Shown: piece after piece, positions 6,611 through 33,439 of the stretch
Position numbering within the stretch: position 1 is the first letter of the stretch
Layout: every line of letters starts with the position of its first letter
NCBI GenBank assembly: GCA_937924475.1
Contig: CALDSV010000067.1
Location: 1 to 33,850, forward strand
DNA: 33,850 nt
Direction: 5' to 3'
DNA from: an uncultured bacterium
GTDB lineage: Bacteria; Nitrospirota; Thermodesulfovibrionia; Thermodesulfovibrionales; Thermodesulfovibrionaceae
Translations under genes and position numbers: made by a program
Notes under the pieces: generated by a model
The model's input: the letters and a program-made list of their open reading frames with translations, nothing else
The model's database searches: none
What the model was told of the DNA's origin: nothing

Positions 6611-8710
6611 TCATACCCTCTCTAAGTTTGCAATTTTTGGTGCAAGCTTTTTTACTCCTATGCCAGGGAAATTCACTACTACTTTTAAATCTTCACCCTC
6701 CCCTGAGCAGTCTCTTACTACTCCAATGCCCCATACAGGATGTTTTACTTTGCATCCAATCATAAAGGGTGGTTTAACTTTTATTGTTTCTTTCTCTTTC
6801 TTTGCTGTACTGAAGGTAGAGTAATCTTTTCTTATACAAATGCAATAATCTCCAGGTATATCTTTGATAAAGCTTGAAGGTTCTTGGCTTTGAACTTTAG
6901 AATAAAGCTTTCTATTCTTGGCAGTCGTTAGAAAAAGGATATCTTTAGCTCTTGTCATTCCCACATAAAATAGTCTTCTTTCCTCTTGAATCTCAACAGG
7001 ATCTTCTTTTGCTTTAAAGTAAGGTATAATTCCCTCTTCACAACCAGCAATGAAGACAACTGAAAATTCGAGACCTTTTGCTGCATGTAATGTAAGAAGG
7101 GACACATATTGTTTTTTATTCTCCCAAGTATCTACAGAAGATATCAAAGATATCTTATCGAGAAACTCTCTTACTGTTTGCTTTTCTGCTGAAGACAGAA
7201 GTTCCAATACATTTTGTATTCTGTCTTCTTCAATCTCTTCTAAATAAGCAGTAGCATTCAAAATTTCCTTTATCATTAAAGCTGCTGTTTTGTATTCCTT
7301 CGCAGATAAATTCTCTATTAAATTAATGAAACCTGATAATTTTTCCTTTAAATTTTCCTGAATGCTCTCATCTTTCACCATCTTTTTAATAGCATCATAA
7401 TAAGAACATGAATTCTTCTTTGCTTCTATTTCAATTTTTGATAAAGCTGACGCTCCTATGCCTCTGGGCGGCGTATTAATTATTCTCAAAAAGCTTACAT
7501 TATCTTCTTTATTTAGTATAAAGCGCATGTAAGATATTACATCTTTAATCTCTTTTCTATGATAAAAACTAACTCCGCTTATAACTTGATAGGGTATTCC
7601 TTCCATTCTCAGGGCTTCTTCTATTGCTCTTGCCTGAAGAGTAAGTCTATACAGGATTGCAAAATCTCTGTATTCATAATCACCTTTTAGATATAATTCT
7701 TTTATATTTTTAGCAATATATTTTGCCTCTTCTTCTTCATTCATTAATTGACAATAATATATTTTTTCACCCCAATCTCTTTCAGTCCAGAGGGATTTTG
7801 GCTTCCTAAGTAAATTTTTTGATATCATTGCAGAAGATGCCATTATTATATATTTTGAGGAACGATAATTCTGCTCTAATTTAACTATTTTTACATTGGG
7901 GAAATCCTTTTCAAAATTTAAAATATTATAAACATTAGCTCCTCTAAATCTATAAATACTTTGATCATCATCACCTACAGCGCATATCTTTTGGTGATAT
8001 TTACAGAGGAGTTGAAGTAAGACGTATTGGGATTTGTTTGTATCTTGAAATTCATCTACAAGAATATATTTGAAATGCTCTGCATACTTTTGTAGTAAGT
8101 CCTCTCTTTCATTAAATAAGTCTATTACCATCAATATTAGATCATCAAAATCAAGAGCATTGTATCTTTTCAATTCATTTTGATATTTTGCATAAATTCT
8201 GCCTAATCTCTCCTCAAATTCATAGCCCTCTATTTGAGATGCATATTGTTCTGCTGATATGAGATTAGATTTCAGATTGCTTATTTTTGATACTACACAC
8301 TTACAAAGAGCCTCATGCATATTGAATTCTTTCAGTATTCTCTTTATTAATGCGGATTGATCATCTTCATCATAGATAATGAAATCTCGAGTATACCCAA
8401 TTTGATCAATATGATTTCTCAGTATGCGTAAACAGAGTGAATGAAATGTTCCAATCCAATGATTTTTCCAATTACCATTACATATCTTACTTATGCGCTC
8501 TTTCATTTCATCAGCAGCCTTATTCGTAAAGGTCACAGTAAATATACAAGAGGGTGAAACACCTAAGACTTTTGTTAGATAAGCATACTTGTAAGTAATA
8601 ACCCTTGTTTTTCCACTTCCTGCCCCGGCGAGCACAAGAAGTGGCCCCTCACAATAAATTACTGCTTCTTGTTGCGCAGGATTTAAATCCCTTAAGGGGA
8701 AATCTTTCAT
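6611..8710 (-). CDS. pcrA: UvrD/PcrA-type superfamily 1 DNA helicase
   Basis: The 699-residue ATP-dependent 3'-5' helicase acts in nucleotide excision repair, mismatch repair and removal of RecA or stalled complexes. Seen motifs are LNPAQQEAV (Q motif), Walker A AGAGSGKT (28-35), TVTFTNKAADEMKER (Ia), WIGTFHSLCLRIL, Walker B LVDEFQDTN, GDDDQSIYRFRGA (III), the LEQNYRS block (IV), TLHAAKGLEF (V) and VGMTRAK (VI). The C-terminal VKHPVWGIGVV segment is the small tail domain of PcrA/UvrD that contacts partners such as RNA polymerase. It could equally be named uvrD. AGAGG precedes the ATG, and the stop overlaps the first possible gatC start. Confidence 0.95.
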   Translation of the reverse strand: MKDFPLRDLNPAQQEAVIYCEGPLLVLAGAGSGKTRVITYKYAYLTKVLGVSPSCIFTVTFTNKAADEMKERISKICNGNWKNHWIGTFHSLCLRILRNHIDQIGYTRDFIIYDEDDQSALIKRILKEFNMHEALCKCVVSKISNLKSNLISAEQYASQIEGYEFEERLGRIYAKYQNELKRYNALDFDDLILMVIDLFNEREDLLQKYAEHFKYILVDEFQDTNKSQYVLLQLLCKYHQKICAVGDDDQSIYRFRGANVYNILNFEKDFPNVKIVKLEQNYRSSKYIIMASSAMISKNLLRKPKSLWTERDWGEKIYYCQLMNEEEEAKYIAKNIKELYLKGDYEYRDFAILYRLTLQARAIEEALRMEGIPYQVISGVSFYHRKEIKDVISYMRFILNKEDNVSFLRIINTPPRGIGASALSKIEIEAKKNSCSYYDAIKKMVKDESIQENLKEKLSGFINLIENLSAKEYKTAALMIKEILNATAYLEEIEEDRIQNVLELLSSAEKQTVREFLDKISLISSVDTWENKKQYVSLLTLHAAKGLEFSVVFIAGCEEGIIPYFKAKEDPVEIQEERRLFYVGMTRAKDILFLTTAKNRKLYSKVQSQEPSSFIKDIPGDYCICIRKDYSTFSTAKKEKETIKVKPPFMIGCKVKHPVWGIGVVRDCSGEGEDLKVVVNFPGIGVKKLAPKIANLERV

Positions 8711-8745
8711 AGCTCTACCCCTCTAATTTTATTTTAAAAACTAAC

Positions 8746-10572
8746 TTATTCAACAGTAACACTTTTTGCAAGATTTCTTGGTTGATCCACATCACATCCT
8801 CTTAAAAGTGCCACATAATATGCCAGTAATTGTAACGGAATAGTAAATAAAATTGTATTTAGATAACTGTTAATACCTTCCACGTATATAAATCTATCAG
8901 AGATTCTATTGAGTTTCTCATCTTTGCTGTCTGAAACTGTTATTATTAAACCATCTCTTGCCTTAATTTCCTCCATATTAGAAATAGTTTTTTCAAGATA
9001 TTGATCAGAGGAAACCACAAATACAACTGGAAAGCCTTCCTCAACTAAAGCAATAGGTCCGTGCTTCATTTCACCAGCAGCATAACCCTCTGCATGGATA
9101 TATGATATTTCTTTCAACTTAAGAGCTCCCTCCAGTGCAACAGGATAGGCAGGTCCTCTACCAAGATATAGGAAATTAGGCTTCCTATAAACTTCTTTTG
9201 CTAATATTTGGATTTTATCATCTAATTTCAAAACTTCTTCTGCAAGAGTTGGAAGATGAAGAAGATCTTTTATAAATTTATGAAAAAGGTCTTTCTGCAA
9301 AGTCCCTTTCAACTGGGCAAAGGCTAAGGTTAGAATATAGAGGGCAGATATTTGACAGGTAAAGGCCTTTGTTGAAGCAACACCTATCTCAGGTCCAGAG
9401 TGAGTATAAAAAACAGCATCAGCTTCACGAGATGCGGTACTACCCAGAACATTACAAATGGCAAGAGTCTTGATACCATATTTTTTTGCGAATCTCAAAG
9501 CTGCTAAAGTATCGGCCGTTTCTCCTGATTGACTTATAGCTATAAAAAGAGAATCCTCTTGAAAGGGAATATTTCTATATCTGAATTCTGAAGCAATGTC
9601 TACCTCAACAGGTATTTTTGCAATATTCTCAATCATGTATTTTCCAATAAGGCAAGCATGATAGGAGGTGCCACAGGCAACTAAATAAATCTTCTTAAAT
9701 TTCTCCATTTCTTCTTCCTTTAAACCCCATTCCTTAAATACAACTCTTGATCCATCTGGTAGTATTCTTCCCCTTATTGTATCAGCTAATGCTCGTGGTT
9801 GCTCATAGATTTCTTTAAGCATAAAGTGTTTAAAACCACCTTTTTCAGCCATACTGGCTGTCCAGTTTATTGTCACTGGGTTTTTCTTTTTTTCTTTTCC
9901 CTGAAAGTTATATATCCTTACTTCACTTTTTTTAAGGCTTGCTATTTCACCATCATCGAGAAAAATAACTCTATTACAATATGAGAGAAAAGCAGGAATA
10001 TCTGAGGCTATAAATTTTTCACCATTAAGAATACCAATTACCAGAGGACTTTCCATTCTTACACCTATTAAGCGATCAGGTTCTCTCTCATCCATTATGA
10101 CAAGGGCATAGGAACCCTTTAGCTTGGAAACTGCCTTTCTTACAGCCTCTTCAAAAGGTAATTTATCCCTGTATTTTCTAATTAGATGAACAATTACCTC
10201 TGTATCAGTCTCGGAAATAAATTTGTATCCATCCTTTTTGAGTTCTCTTTTTAATTCGGCATAATTTTCTATGATTCCATTGTGAACTAAAACAATTCCT
10301 CCTGAGCAATGGGGATGGGCATTTTCATCAGAAGGTTTACCATGAGTTGCCCATCGAGTATGACCGATAGCTATAGTAGAGGAATTTAACTGTTCATCTA
10401 CCAAGGTTTCGAGATTTTTGATCTTCCCTTTACATTTAATAATTTTTATCTTTTCATCAATTAAACAAGCAATTCCTGCTGAATCATAACCTCGGTATTC
10501 AAGTTTCTTTAAACCCTCTAATACAATTGAAACAGCCTTTTTGTCACCAATATAGCCAATTATTCCACACAT
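8746..10572 (-). CDS. glmS: Glutamine-fructose-6-phosphate aminotransferase (isomerizing)
   Basis: GlmS makes glucosamine 6-phosphate from fructose 6-phosphate and glutamine, the first step to UDP-GlcNAc. The protein is 608 residues from the start chosen here. That start gives MCGIIGYIG, whose Cys (position 2, exposed after Met removal) is the glutaminase nucleophile. The reading frame stays open 24 codons further upstream, but that would bury the Cys and lie inside glmU. The N-terminal glutaminase half (GHTRWATHG, HNGIIENY) is followed by two SIS sugar-isomerase domains (CGTSYHAC, SQSGETADT, EGALKLKEISY) and the tail DQPRNLAKSVTVE. The ATG overlaps the glmU stop as TAATG, with AAGGAAG upstream. 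No glmS ribozyme is visible. Confidence 0.98.
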   Translation of the reverse strand: MCGIIGYIGDKKAVSIVLEGLKKLEYRGYDSAGIACLIDEKIKIIKCKGKIKNLETLVDEQLNSSTIAIGHTRWATHGKPSDENAHPHCSGGIVLVHNGIIENYAELKRELKKDGYKFISETDTEVIVHLIRKYRDKLPFEEAVRKAVSKLKGSYALVIMDEREPDRLIGVRMESPLVIGILNGEKFIASDIPAFLSYCNRVIFLDDGEIASLKKSEVRIYNFQGKEKKKNPVTINWTASMAEKGGFKHFMLKEIYEQPRALADTIRGRILPDGSRVVFKEWGLKEEEMEKFKKIYLVACGTSYHACLIGKYMIENIAKIPVEVDIASEFRYRNIPFQEDSLFIAISQSGETADTLAALRFAKKYGIKTLAICNVLGSTASREADAVFYTHSGPEIGVASTKAFTCQISALYILTLAFAQLKGTLQKDLFHKFIKDLLHLPTLAEEVLKLDDKIQILAKEVYRKPNFLYLGRGPAYPVALEGALKLKEISYIHAEGYAAGEMKHGPIALVEEGFPVVFVVSSDQYLEKTISNMEEIKARDGLIITVSDSKDEKLNRISDRFIYVEGINSYLNTILFTIPLQLLAYYVALLRGCDVDQPRNLAKSVTVE

Positions 10573-11933
10573 TAGGTCTTCCTTATTTTTTTCTTTGACC
10601 AACCTTCTATGTGTCTCTGAGGTACCCTGCTTATAGCAAGGCAACCCTCTGGGACTTCTTTTGTTATAGTAGAGCCTGCTGCAATATAGGCATCTTTGTT
10701 AATTTTTACAGGCGCTACAAGTTGAGAATCACTTCCAACGAAAACATTATCCTCTATTATTGTTTTATGTTTTTTAGTACCATCATAATTACAAGTTATG
10801 GTTCCTGCTCCAATATTTACATTTTTACCAATTTCTGCATCGCCAATATAGCTAAGATGGGCTGCTTTTGTTCCATCTTTTAAAACCGATTTTTTAATCT
10901 CTACAAAATTTCCAACCCTACAGTTTTTACCTATTAATGTATCAGGTCTTAAATGGGCAAAGGGACCTATCTTGGAACCTGATTTAATTTGAGTATTCTC
11001 TGCAATAGTGTAATCCTTTATTTCAACAGAATCTTCGATAATACAATTTCTTAATCTAACACCCTGATGTAAAGTACAGTTTTTCCCTATAATTGTCTCA
11101 CCTTCTATAAAAACATTAGGATATATGACAGTATCTTCACCAATCTGTACTTTTGGCGAAATCCAGGTAGTGGCAGAGTCATATATGGTTACACCTTTAT
11201 CCATCCATTCTCTCACAATTCTATCTCTTAAATATTTCATAGCCAAAGAAAGTTCAAATCTTGTATTTATACCTATAAGTTCCTCTTCCTCAGCAATAGT
11301 GTAAGCTTCTACTTTTTTACCTTTTTTTACAGCTATTTCCACAAGGTCTGTAAAGTAATATTCCTTTTTAAGGGGATTTTCTTCAATTGCTCTAACAAAC
11401 TCTGCTAATTGTCTTTTTAATAAGTAAACTCCACTATTTGCCTCTGATATATTTTTTTTATTTTCTGATAAATCTGTCACTTCTACGATTTTCTGGACAT
11501 TACCTTTTTGATCTCTTAAAATTCTTCCATAGGAATGTTCTCTTTTAGGTATAAAGGAAAGAATACCCATATCAACAGCGTTTTTCTTGTAAAGATCAAT
11601 AAATTTAGAGATAGTCCCTGCTTTTAAAAGAGGTGTATCACCATTTAATATGAGAATATCTTCACTCTTTAAGAAAGATAAGGCACTAAGCACAGCATTT
11701 CCAGTGCCTTTTGGTTCTTTTTGAAAAACGAAATTTATGTCATAATTTGACAAATGCTCTTTTAATTCCTGGAGTTGAGGATTAATAACCACGAACAAGT
11801 TATTAGGATTCAAGGTTCTTGCTGTTTCTATTACATAATCTATTATGGGAACATCAAAAATTCTATGAAGCAGTTTTGGTATTTTTGATTTCATCCTTGT
11901 GCCCAACCCTGCTGCCAAAATAACTATATCCAC
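10572..11933 (-). CDS. glmU: Bifunctional N-acetylglucosamine-1-phosphate uridyltransferase / glucosamine-1-phosphate acetyltransferase
   Basis: GlmU acetylates glucosamine 1-phosphate and then couples it to UTP, giving UDP-GlcNAc for peptidoglycan and LPS. The 453-residue protein has the N-terminal uridyltransferase domain (LAAGLGTRMKSKIPKLLH at 7-24, then NGDTPLL). The C-terminal left-handed beta-helix has hexapeptide repeats (IGENC-type turns such as IGKNCRVGNFVEIKKS) and acetyltransferase residues in NYDGTKKHKT. The start is GTG at 11933, with GGTGG seven bases upstream. It overlaps the preceding stop by one base (TAGTG) and the next start by one base (TAATG). Direct glmU-glmS linkage is a common bacterial arrangement. 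Confidence 0.98.
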   Translation of the reverse strand: MDIVILAAGLGTRMKSKIPKLLHRIFDVPIIDYVIETARTLNPNNLFVVINPQLQELKEHLSNYDINFVFQKEPKGTGNAVLSALSFLKSEDILILNGDTPLLKAGTISKFIDLYKKNAVDMGILSFIPKREHSYGRILRDQKGNVQKIVEVTDLSENKKNISEANSGVYLLKRQLAEFVRAIEENPLKKEYYFTDLVEIAVKKGKKVEAYTIAEEEELIGINTRFELSLAMKYLRDRIVREWMDKGVTIYDSATTWISPKVQIGEDTVIYPNVFIEGETIIGKNCTLHQGVRLRNCIIEDSVEIKDYTIAENTQIKSGSKIGPFAHLRPDTLIGKNCRVGNFVEIKKSVLKDGTKAAHLSYIGDAEIGKNVNIGAGTITCNYDGTKKHKTIIEDNVFVGSDSQLVAPVKINKDAYIAAGSTITKEVPEGCLAISRVPQRHIEGWSKKKIRKT

Positions 11934-13386: not shown

Positions 13387-13603
13387 TTGCGATGATGGAT
13401 TGCCTCGCAGTCCTTCACACTGCTCGCAATGACTTCTCCCTTCTGTCATTGCGACTCCGCGTTTTGCGAGGGGGAAGCAATCTCGTCTTCCATGTTTTTA
13501 AGAGAGAGAGGTTGCAATGAGATTGCTTCGGGCACCTTGCGGTGCCCTCGCAATGACGAGAAGTGGGGTTTGCTTCGCCTGCCTAAAGGCAGGCTTGCAA
13601 TGA
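13387..13603. repeat. Cluster of palindromic repeat elements (copies C, D, E)
   Basis: At least three copies of the TCATTGCGA/TCGCAATGA element seen at 301-441 lie here. Copy C ends at 13433 and has GCAGT-loop-ACTGC (407-411 with 419-423 of the 13,000s). Copy D spans about 13443-13557 and has a perfect 7-bp stem GGGCACC-TTGC-GGTGCCC (13530-13547). Copy E spans about 13569-13603 with GCCTGCC-TAAA-GGCAGGC (13577-13594). Each hairpin is followed by (c)TCGCAATGAC or TTGCAATGAC. Open frames across this region on both strands come from the repeats and are not taken as genes. Confidence 0.7.
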
Positions 13604-32052: not shown

Positions 32053-33078
32053 TTATGTTAGAATTATTTTAGTAACTTTTTCCTCAACTACCTCTCCTAT
32101 TATAGAAGCTTCCTTATAACCAGCCTGTATTAGTTGACTTTGAAGTAACTCAGCATTCTTTTCTTTTATTGAAATTAAAAGTCCTCCTGAAGTCTGTGGA
32201 TCTCCGAGAATATCAAGAGTTATGGAGTCCATATTTCTTATTTCCACAAGCTTCTCACAATAATTTATATTTCTCCTGCCACCAGCTGGGACTATTCCCA
32301 TAGAAGCATACTCATAAACCTTTGGCATTATAGGAACTTTGTCCTTAAAAATTCTAATAGTTACTTTACTTGCTCTTGCCATTTCAAGACTATGACCTAA
32401 AAGTCCAAAGCCAGTTATATCAGTACATGCCGAAGCACCTAATTGCATCATTATTTCTGATGCTCTTTTATTAAGGGTTTCCATAGTATGGGTTAGGTAC
32501 TTTGTAGTTTCAGAATCAAGGAGCTTTCCTTTTAAAGCTGTTGATAGAATTCCTGTACCTATAGGTTTTGTGAGGACTAAAAGATCTCCTTTTTTAGCTC
32601 CGCGATTAGTAATAAATTTTTCGGGATGAACTATACCTGTAACAGCTAACCCATATTTTATCTCTGGATCTTCAACACTATGCCCCCCTAATAGAACTAC
32701 CTCTGCTTCTTTTAGTTTATCTAAACCACCACGAAGTATTTCCCTTAATATATTCTTATCCATCTCTTTAATAGGAAAACATACAATATTTAGAGCTAAG
32801 AGAGGTTTGCCACCTACAGCATATATGTCACTAAGAGAATTTGCCACTGCTATTTTGCCAAAGTCATAGGGATCATCAACAATGGGAGTAAAAAAGTCTA
32901 TGCTTTGAACAAGCGCCACATCTTCATTCAAACGATAAATTCCTGCATCTGACCAGTCTTCAGAGCCAATTAATAAATTAACATCTACTGGTAAAGAAAG
33001 TCCTCTCAATATATCTTCCAGCTCCGCCGGACCTATCTTGGCAGCTCAACCTGCTGCTTTTACTTTTTCCGTAAGCAT
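32053..33078 (-). CDS. selD: Selenide, water dikinase with in-frame TGA (predicted selenocysteine)
   Basis: SelD makes selenophosphate from selenide and ATP, the selenium donor for selenocysteine and selenouridine. The frame 32053-33009 alone lacks the catalytic N-terminus. Reading on upstream, an ATG at 33078 with GGAG five bases before it gives VKAAG-TGA-AAKIGPAEL, so the TGA (33046-33048) is codon 11. It falls where E. coli SelD has Cys17, with a Lys three residues later (K14, like K20). With U11 the protein is 341 residues, the usual length. The ATP-binding part shows DFFTPIVDDPYDFGKIAVANSLSDIYAVGG, LGGHSVEDPE, DITGFGLLGH and DPQTSGGLL. Read-through needs a SECIS (candidate 33020-33046). 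A decayed gene is less likely because the rest is intact. Confidence 0.92.
33020..33046 (-). promoter_or_regulatory. Candidate bacterial SECIS element just after the selD TGA
   Basis: From the A of the UGA onward, AGCU pairs with AGCU and GCC pairs with GGC, with a GG bulge on the 3' side. The 11-base apical loop AAGAUAGGUCC contains GGUC, and a GGUC motif is also found in the loop of the E. coli fdhF SECIS. The loop is nearer to the UGA than in fdhF, so the fold is tentative. A competing hairpin (GCAGC/GCUGC, 33041-33057) would put the UGA in its loop. Confidence 0.4.
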
Positions 33079-33439
33079 CCTTTCTCCCCTTTAATTTTTT
33101 TAATTCTATCATAATTTTTCTAAAGTAAAATAGCTAAAAATTTCAAATTTTAAGTTTGGATTAATGAATATTTTGTCTTTATAAATACACTTCCAGCTCC
33201 TTTGTCATTTAAAGAGATACTTTTTCCCCGATTTTTCTAAAGTTATTACAAGGATGTCTCTAACTTTTATCTTTCTCATTCCATAATTATGACTCCCTTA
33301 AGTCATGAAAAATAATCCTTATGAACTCAAAAGAAATCACCTGTTAAGAGGCTAAAGAAATGAGCCATGGCAATTCATCCTTTAAATTTAAAAAAAGTAA
33401 ATTCTTAAAAATTAACCTTCAATTTAATTGATTATCTCT
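33079..33439. other. Intergenic spacer between parA-like gene and selD
   Basis: This 361-base AT-rich stretch has no open frame worth reporting. It contains the selD promoter candidate at its left end and a small inverted repeat, ATGACT-CCCTTA-AGTCAT (33289-33306). I see no recognisable RNA gene, terminator or repeat family in the rest. Confidence 0.5.
33103..33111 (-). promoter_or_regulatory. Extended -10 promoter of selD
   Basis: On the minus strand TGATAGAAT (33111-33103) is an extended -10 with one mismatch in TATAAT. Transcription would start near 33096, giving an 18-base leader that contains GGGGAG before the ATG at 33078. This position supports the upstream start of selD. The -35 region is weak. 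Confidence 0.4.

Follow-up and report, generated by a model that had tools for sequence, protein, structure and literature searches.

The question raised by this locus is where its selD gene begins and what the eleventh codon stands for. The window (the whole stretch of DNA that was analysed, 33,850 nucleotides) carries a selD frame which mechanical calling starts at TTG 33009, giving an open reading frame of 318 amino acids, whereas the same frame can be followed upstream, through a TGA, to an ATG at 33078. The preliminary description took this TGA for the catalytic selenocysteine (Sec) codon of a selenoprotein that standard annotation would truncate. The mechanical call, which starts past the TGA, does truncate the gene, and a selD with an in-frame TGA at the catalytic position is confirmed by the observations that follow.

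The selD frame and its conserved TGA

Re-reading the minus strand agrees with the frame described earlier: the TGA at 33048-33046 is in frame both with ATG 33078 and with the SelD frame from TTG 33009, it is the sole internal stop of the 341-codon frame, and, when it is read as Sec, the translation has U11 and, three residues later, K14 (Table 1). With Cys in place of Sec, the protein scores 382.8 bits against TIGR00476 (cut-off 125) in a match that begins at residue 2. Residue 11 had been placed at the position of Cys17 of the E. coli enzyme, and the structural alignments are consistent with this. In PDB 2yye it lies opposite the Cys of SSGCAAK, and the Lys also matches; in 3u0o, which we take to be E. 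coli SelD, residues 2-332 align with 8-336, so that residue 11 corresponds to position 17 if the alignment is gap-free. In E. coli SelD, the catalytic Cys and the Lys three residues on are Cys17 and Lys20.

Table 1. Coordinates of the features discussed (window positions, unless a contig of the same genome is named).
Feature	Position	Strand	Remarks
selD, full frame; selenide, water dikinase, Sec type	32053..33078	(-)	341 aa, one in-frame TGA
TGA codon 11, putative Sec; catalytic Cys/Sec position	33046..33048	(-)	from conservation and alignment
Purine-rich ribosome-binding sequence AGGGGAGAAAGG before ATG 33078	33079..33090	(-)	identical in G013
-10-like sequence TATGATAGAATT	33102..33113	(-)	at most 1 difference in two other Thermodesulfovibrio genomes
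Register B hairpin, candidate SECIS, UCCGGC-GGA-GCUGGA	33017..33031	(-)	-7.5 kcal/mol, the lowest in the window; loop 21-23 nt past the UGA
Register A hairpin, candidate SECIS, with G-G mismatch	33021..33033	(-)	loop 18-20 nt after UGA; -4.9 kcal/mol, best sub-stem evaluated
Upstream hairpin with UGA in loop, GCAGC/GCUGC	33041..33057	(-)	mostly due to Ala codons, though not entirely so in the genus
FDH-N alpha, TGA at active site	G000:C1:965-3346 (L125, L130)		
FDH-N alpha, Cys paralogue	G000:C40:18523-20910 (L144)		82% identity

The start signals proposed for the longer gene hold in part. The ribosome-binding sequence is found before the ATG; the extended -10 site is not among the sites listed by a promoter scan, although the closest relative has an identical -10-like sequence and a third species one that differs by a single base. 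The 361 nt between a ParA-like gene and selD (33079-33439) contain no listed open reading frame of at least 80 amino acids and align well with the closest relative.

It is important to note that a long open frame behind a TGA is not rare by chance (8 TGAs of the window are followed by 110 or more open codons and preceded by 7 or more), so that the evidence lies in the conservation of the protein across the TGA. We searched the genome of the window and 40 relatives. A strong SelD match (E 2e-65 or better) is present in 36 of these 41 genomes, each time with exactly one in-frame stop, which is TGA in 36/36; the five genomes with no such match comprise four that are 56-72% complete and one (G035) that is 99% complete. 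Thirty of the 36 strong matches became loci and were read, and all 30 have the TGA at the identical place, followed by AAK, ASK or AGK. Among the 16 genomes of Thermodesulfovibrio, selD was found in 12, all of them with the Sec form. The nearest named SelD proteins are from loci titled Thermodesulfovibrio (76-78% identity), and, as judged from sequence, the source of the window presumably belongs to this genus, in the phylum Nitrospirota.

The conservation extends further. TGA is present in 31 of 32 named loci (six of which repeat genomes of the genus), the remaining one, titled Geobacteraceae, having TGT, and TGA-type SelD also occurs in records titled Deltaproteobacteria and Bacillota. Across the phylum, 148 genomes were sampled, 20 places being fetched among 69 matches; SelD reaches E 1e-40 or better in 64 genomes, with TGA in 58/64 and TGC in 6/64. 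As for a second, Cys-type selD in the genome of the window, its assembly holds no second strong match: the next ones (E 1.2e-5 and 4.6e-5) have 30-32% identity over partial length. A search of a plasmid collection returned 181 records, every one below 60% identity.

Some genomes have additional SelD-like sequences. Four in the phylum sample (G044, G045, G063 and G144) give two SelD matches each, both with an in-frame TGA. In G024, two adjoining weaker pieces (G024:C3:119574-120049, E 1.2e-24 and 6.5e-12), one of which has a TAG inside, lie beside a TGA-type SelD and are perhaps a remnant. Elsewhere in the window, a GlmS-like open reading frame called from a TTG (8746-10644), whose domains are SIS and glutamine amidotransferase, overlaps a GlmU-like one (10572-11933) by 73 bases; the true GlmS-like start probably lies further downstream.

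Selenocysteine machinery and a second UGA-containing gene

The assembly to which the window belongs is a draft of 80 contigs, 94.74% complete. In profile searches, its selA scores 626.3 bits (cut-off 267.9) and its tRNA-Sec (selC) 72.6 bits (cut-off 47); a second program calls the latter tRNA-SeC, with anticodon TCA. The preliminary description had asked for selA, selB and selC; two of the three are present, and selB was not found over its cut-off in this assembly, the best candidate being a partial match of 192.6 bits (against 242.25) which, judged by its length, we took for EF-Tu.

By the same cut-off, selB is found in 38 of the 41 genomes. In the closest relative and in G009 it lies between a gene for a DegP-like protease and hisH (neighbours named by eye, hisH backed by a search), and the SelB of G009 has the SelB winged-helix domains. 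The 8-kb selB stretch of the closest relative, compared with the assembly of the window, has no orthologous counterpart there: it gives a single 71% match, besides short dispersed repeats, and hisH too falls short of its cut-off in that assembly. Since this neighbourhood and hisH are missing too, and since 38/41 genomes have selB, the absence of selB likely reflects an assembly gap and not a loss; the gene would then lie in the unassembled part of the genome.

Short dispersed repeats are seen in the window at 359-396 and 13396-13433 and in locus L054 at about 8354-8793, and the end of the relative's selB stretch matches dozens of places in the genome of the window (45 matches listed in all). 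Such repeats may explain the breaks in the assembly. In locus L001, selA adjoins a CdhD-like gene (CO dehydrogenase/acetyl-CoA synthase delta subunit family). Selenouridine synthase (TIGR03167) has no match in the incomplete genome of the window.

selD is not the only gene of this genome with a UGA at an active site. The alpha subunit of a formate dehydrogenase of the FDH-N type (1169.3 bits, cut-off 814.2) has a TGA within EHQARI-U-HSPTV, and FDH-N alpha with TGA occurs in 14 of the 16 genomes of the genus. Downstream of this UGA lies a hairpin with a nine-pair stem, the loop of which (GGC or GGG) is situated 24-26 nt past the UGA. From the 14 TGA loci, 8 and 7 sequences were located in two sets (12 distinct; L134 and L136 were not located): the nine-pair stem is complete in 8/8 of one set, and pair 16-34 is present in 4/7 of the other. 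Most positions being invariant, this is conservation and not covariation. The nine-pair stem is absent from the Cys paralogue. Among the 16 genomes of the genus, that of the window is the only one to give a second FDH-N alpha match at E 1e-100 or better. The claim that the organism uses selenocysteine is supported by selA, tRNA-Sec and this second UGA gene.

Candidate SECIS hairpins downstream of the UGA

Counting the first nucleotide after the UGA of selD as 1, two overlapping hairpin registers can be drawn. In register A, nucleotides 13-17 pair with 21-25 (GGUCC-NNN-GGACC); in register B, 15-20 pair with 24-29 around a GGA loop. From sequence, hairpins that fit the bacterial SECIS model are predicted 3' of the UGA beyond what codon choice accounts for. 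This was evaluated by keeping the amino acids fixed and redrawing the codons from the usage of each group; the sequences are related, so that the counts overstate independence. The groups include the genus, the order and two sets to which we gave the labels Syntrophobacter-like (L077-L089) and Desulfovibrio-like (L091-L102); the counts leave out L071-L076, which repeat genomes of the genus, the TGT row (L090) is outside the Sec counts, and L121 and L122 are not in the sets of 67 sequences.

The pairing observed in register A is reached by 0/4000 redraws in each of four groups, with the same reserve about related sequences. In register B it is reached by 0/4000 redraws in two groups, the genus and the Desulfovibrio-like genes, and by 2/4000 in the order; the Syntrophobacter-like group has no excess (955/4000). 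According to the part of the source available to us, the published model for bacterial SECIS elements (bSECIS) puts G at the first two positions of the loop, at a distance of 16-37 nt from the UGA (PMC13188914). The lowest-energy hairpin agrees with this rule in 61 of the 67 sequences, while 200 redraws have a mean of 41.0, none reaching 61. In four of five groups, the local folds have a lower mean energy than any of the 200 redraws (in the genus, -8.03 vs -2.68 kcal/mol). Here again the Syntrophobacter-like group does not stand out, the rule count being reached by 24/200 redraws and the energy by 15/200.

The best local hairpin is of register A in 25 of the 67 sequences, of register B in 17 and of another kind in 25, including all 12 rows from the wider phylum; outside the genus, the lowest-energy hairpin is often in neither register. 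Folding energies compared with those of dinucleotide shuffles are unremarkable (in the window, z is -0.76 over 47 nt and -1.55 over 59 nt; two relatives give -0.36 and 0.23), and the region near selD has no Rfam match up to E = 1. The six Cys-type SelD genes (TGC) form 1-2 of the 5 pairs of stem A and 2-5 of the 6 pairs of stem B, which makes a weak control for the hairpins, since the protein itself differs in the hairpin codons.

The window departs from its genus in the register that it prefers. The lowest-energy local fold is A (GGUCC-NNN-GGAC(C/U)) in 11 of the 12 sequences of the genus, and B only in the window; among the Desulfovibrio-like SelD genes, it is B in 12/12. The window and its closest relative differ at nucleotide 24 (33022), where the window has G for C, and Glu for Asp: this G breaks one pair of A and completes one pair of B. 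In the closest relative, A has -9.0 and B -4.5 kcal/mol; in the window, the order is reversed. Both loops of the window fit the published bSECIS model, and both start with GG, a feature shared with the loop of the formate dehydrogenase hairpin of the genus. It may be, and we propose it tentatively, that the change from C to G (Asp to Glu, codon 19) moved the working SECIS of selD by one codon, 3 nt downstream, to where it is in the Desulfovibrio-like SelD genes. If this is true, the shift is a natural experiment on how far SelB tolerates changes in loop position.

Readings of the UGA and relation to known systems

We consider it very probable that the selD gene of Thermodesulfovibrio encodes a selenophosphate synthetase with a catalytic Sec, whose UGA codon 11 is decoded by SelB, Sec-tRNA(Sec) and a bacterial SECIS, and that Sec is also used in at least one formate dehydrogenase. 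A small hairpin, its apical loop situated 18-23 nt past the UGA, would aid SelB and Sec-tRNA(Sec) in reading codon 11 as Sec; without it, translation would end after ten residues. SelD would make the selenophosphate with which SelA makes Sec on tRNA-Sec, and Sec would in turn be needed for SelD and for at least one formate dehydrogenase. By this logic, a selenium feedback loop via SelD, also proposed earlier, is plausible.

The region around the UGA was also suggested to be a regulatory switch, in which two alternative hairpins, one of them with the UGA in its loop, sense selenium and set the level of SelD. We find this unlikely. The 59-nt fold does have a 5-bp stem with the UGA in the loop, all five pairs are present in 9/12 sequences of the genus (the central pair being T-A in 7 and A-T in 3), and the genus mean of 4.67 pairs, compared with a redraw mean of 4.16, is reached by 0/2000 redraws of these related sequences. 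However, the stem, GCNGC/GCNGC, is mostly dictated by the Ala-Ala codons on both sides, and the central pair is present in 29/55 sequences (10/12 in the genus, 9/18 in the order, 7/13 and 3/12 in the other two groups). The observed pairing is reached by 74/2000 redraws in the order, a weak excess, and by 178 and 1467/2000 in the other two groups, little or none; the hairpin that was described forms and exceeds codon choice in the genus, but hardly beyond it. Nor are the two hairpins mutually exclusive, contrary to what was claimed, since the lowest-energy 59-nt fold holds both together. As to the hairpin said to have a GGUC apical loop, an approximate version built for the purpose has -4.8 kcal/mol, compared with -7.5 for the best hairpin. 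Support for the two-hairpin switch is weak at best.

Still less probable is that the TGA ends a ten-codon leader and that a shorter SelD, devoid of the catalytic residue, starts at TTG 33009. The mechanical open reading frame of 318 amino acids begins there, and a TTG-started selD frame of equal length exists in the closest relative, but the protein match in the relatives already starts at the first residues and continues across the TGA, the TIGR00476 match covers all but the first of these residues, and the ribosome-binding sequence is located at the ATG. An error of sequencing or assembly at the TGA, or a gene in decay, can practically be dismissed in spite of the draft state of the genome, since the same TGA is kept in independent genomes at the level of genus, order and phylum and in the records titled Deltaproteobacteria and Bacillota, and no further stop interrupts the 341 codons.

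The reading of codon 11 as Sec is therefore the one that we retain. Overall, the preliminary description is partly supported, the supported part being its core: a SelD of the Sec type, a Sec-using organism and a gene truncated by calling. The principle of a Sec-type SelD is textbook, and the immediate gain is the correction of a gene cut short by mechanical calling. That a selD homologue autoregulates selenocysteine metabolism, SelD needing its own product, was reportedly put forward by Guimaraes et al. in 1996, in a paper cited by PMC8659212, and the proposed selenium feedback is the same idea.

Sec-SelD, its SECIS and the autoregulation idea being already in print, the selD gene of the window is an ordinary further member. 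In the text available of one study, Sec is found in 19% of the SelD genes of a reference set of 223 genomes, always at one position, and a bacterial SECIS element was found in the SelD coding sequence with RNAz (PMC4561486); another source, in the part at hand, terms FdhA and SelD the most widespread bacterial selenoproteins (PMC1794560). Compared with the prokaryotic Sec-SelD/SPS genes of the former, again as far as its available text goes, the window shares the family, the kind of residue position and a putative SECIS within the coding sequence, but it comes from another species and its most stable SECIS candidate is 3 nt off that of 11 sequences of the genus. The register B loop, GGA, agrees with the bSECIS model as given in the accessible part of its source (PMC13188914), whereas the hairpins of the genus have triloops and the window has no Rfam match near selD. 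Together, the SECIS hairpins in two registers make up a small set that could be used to test the requirements of SelB.
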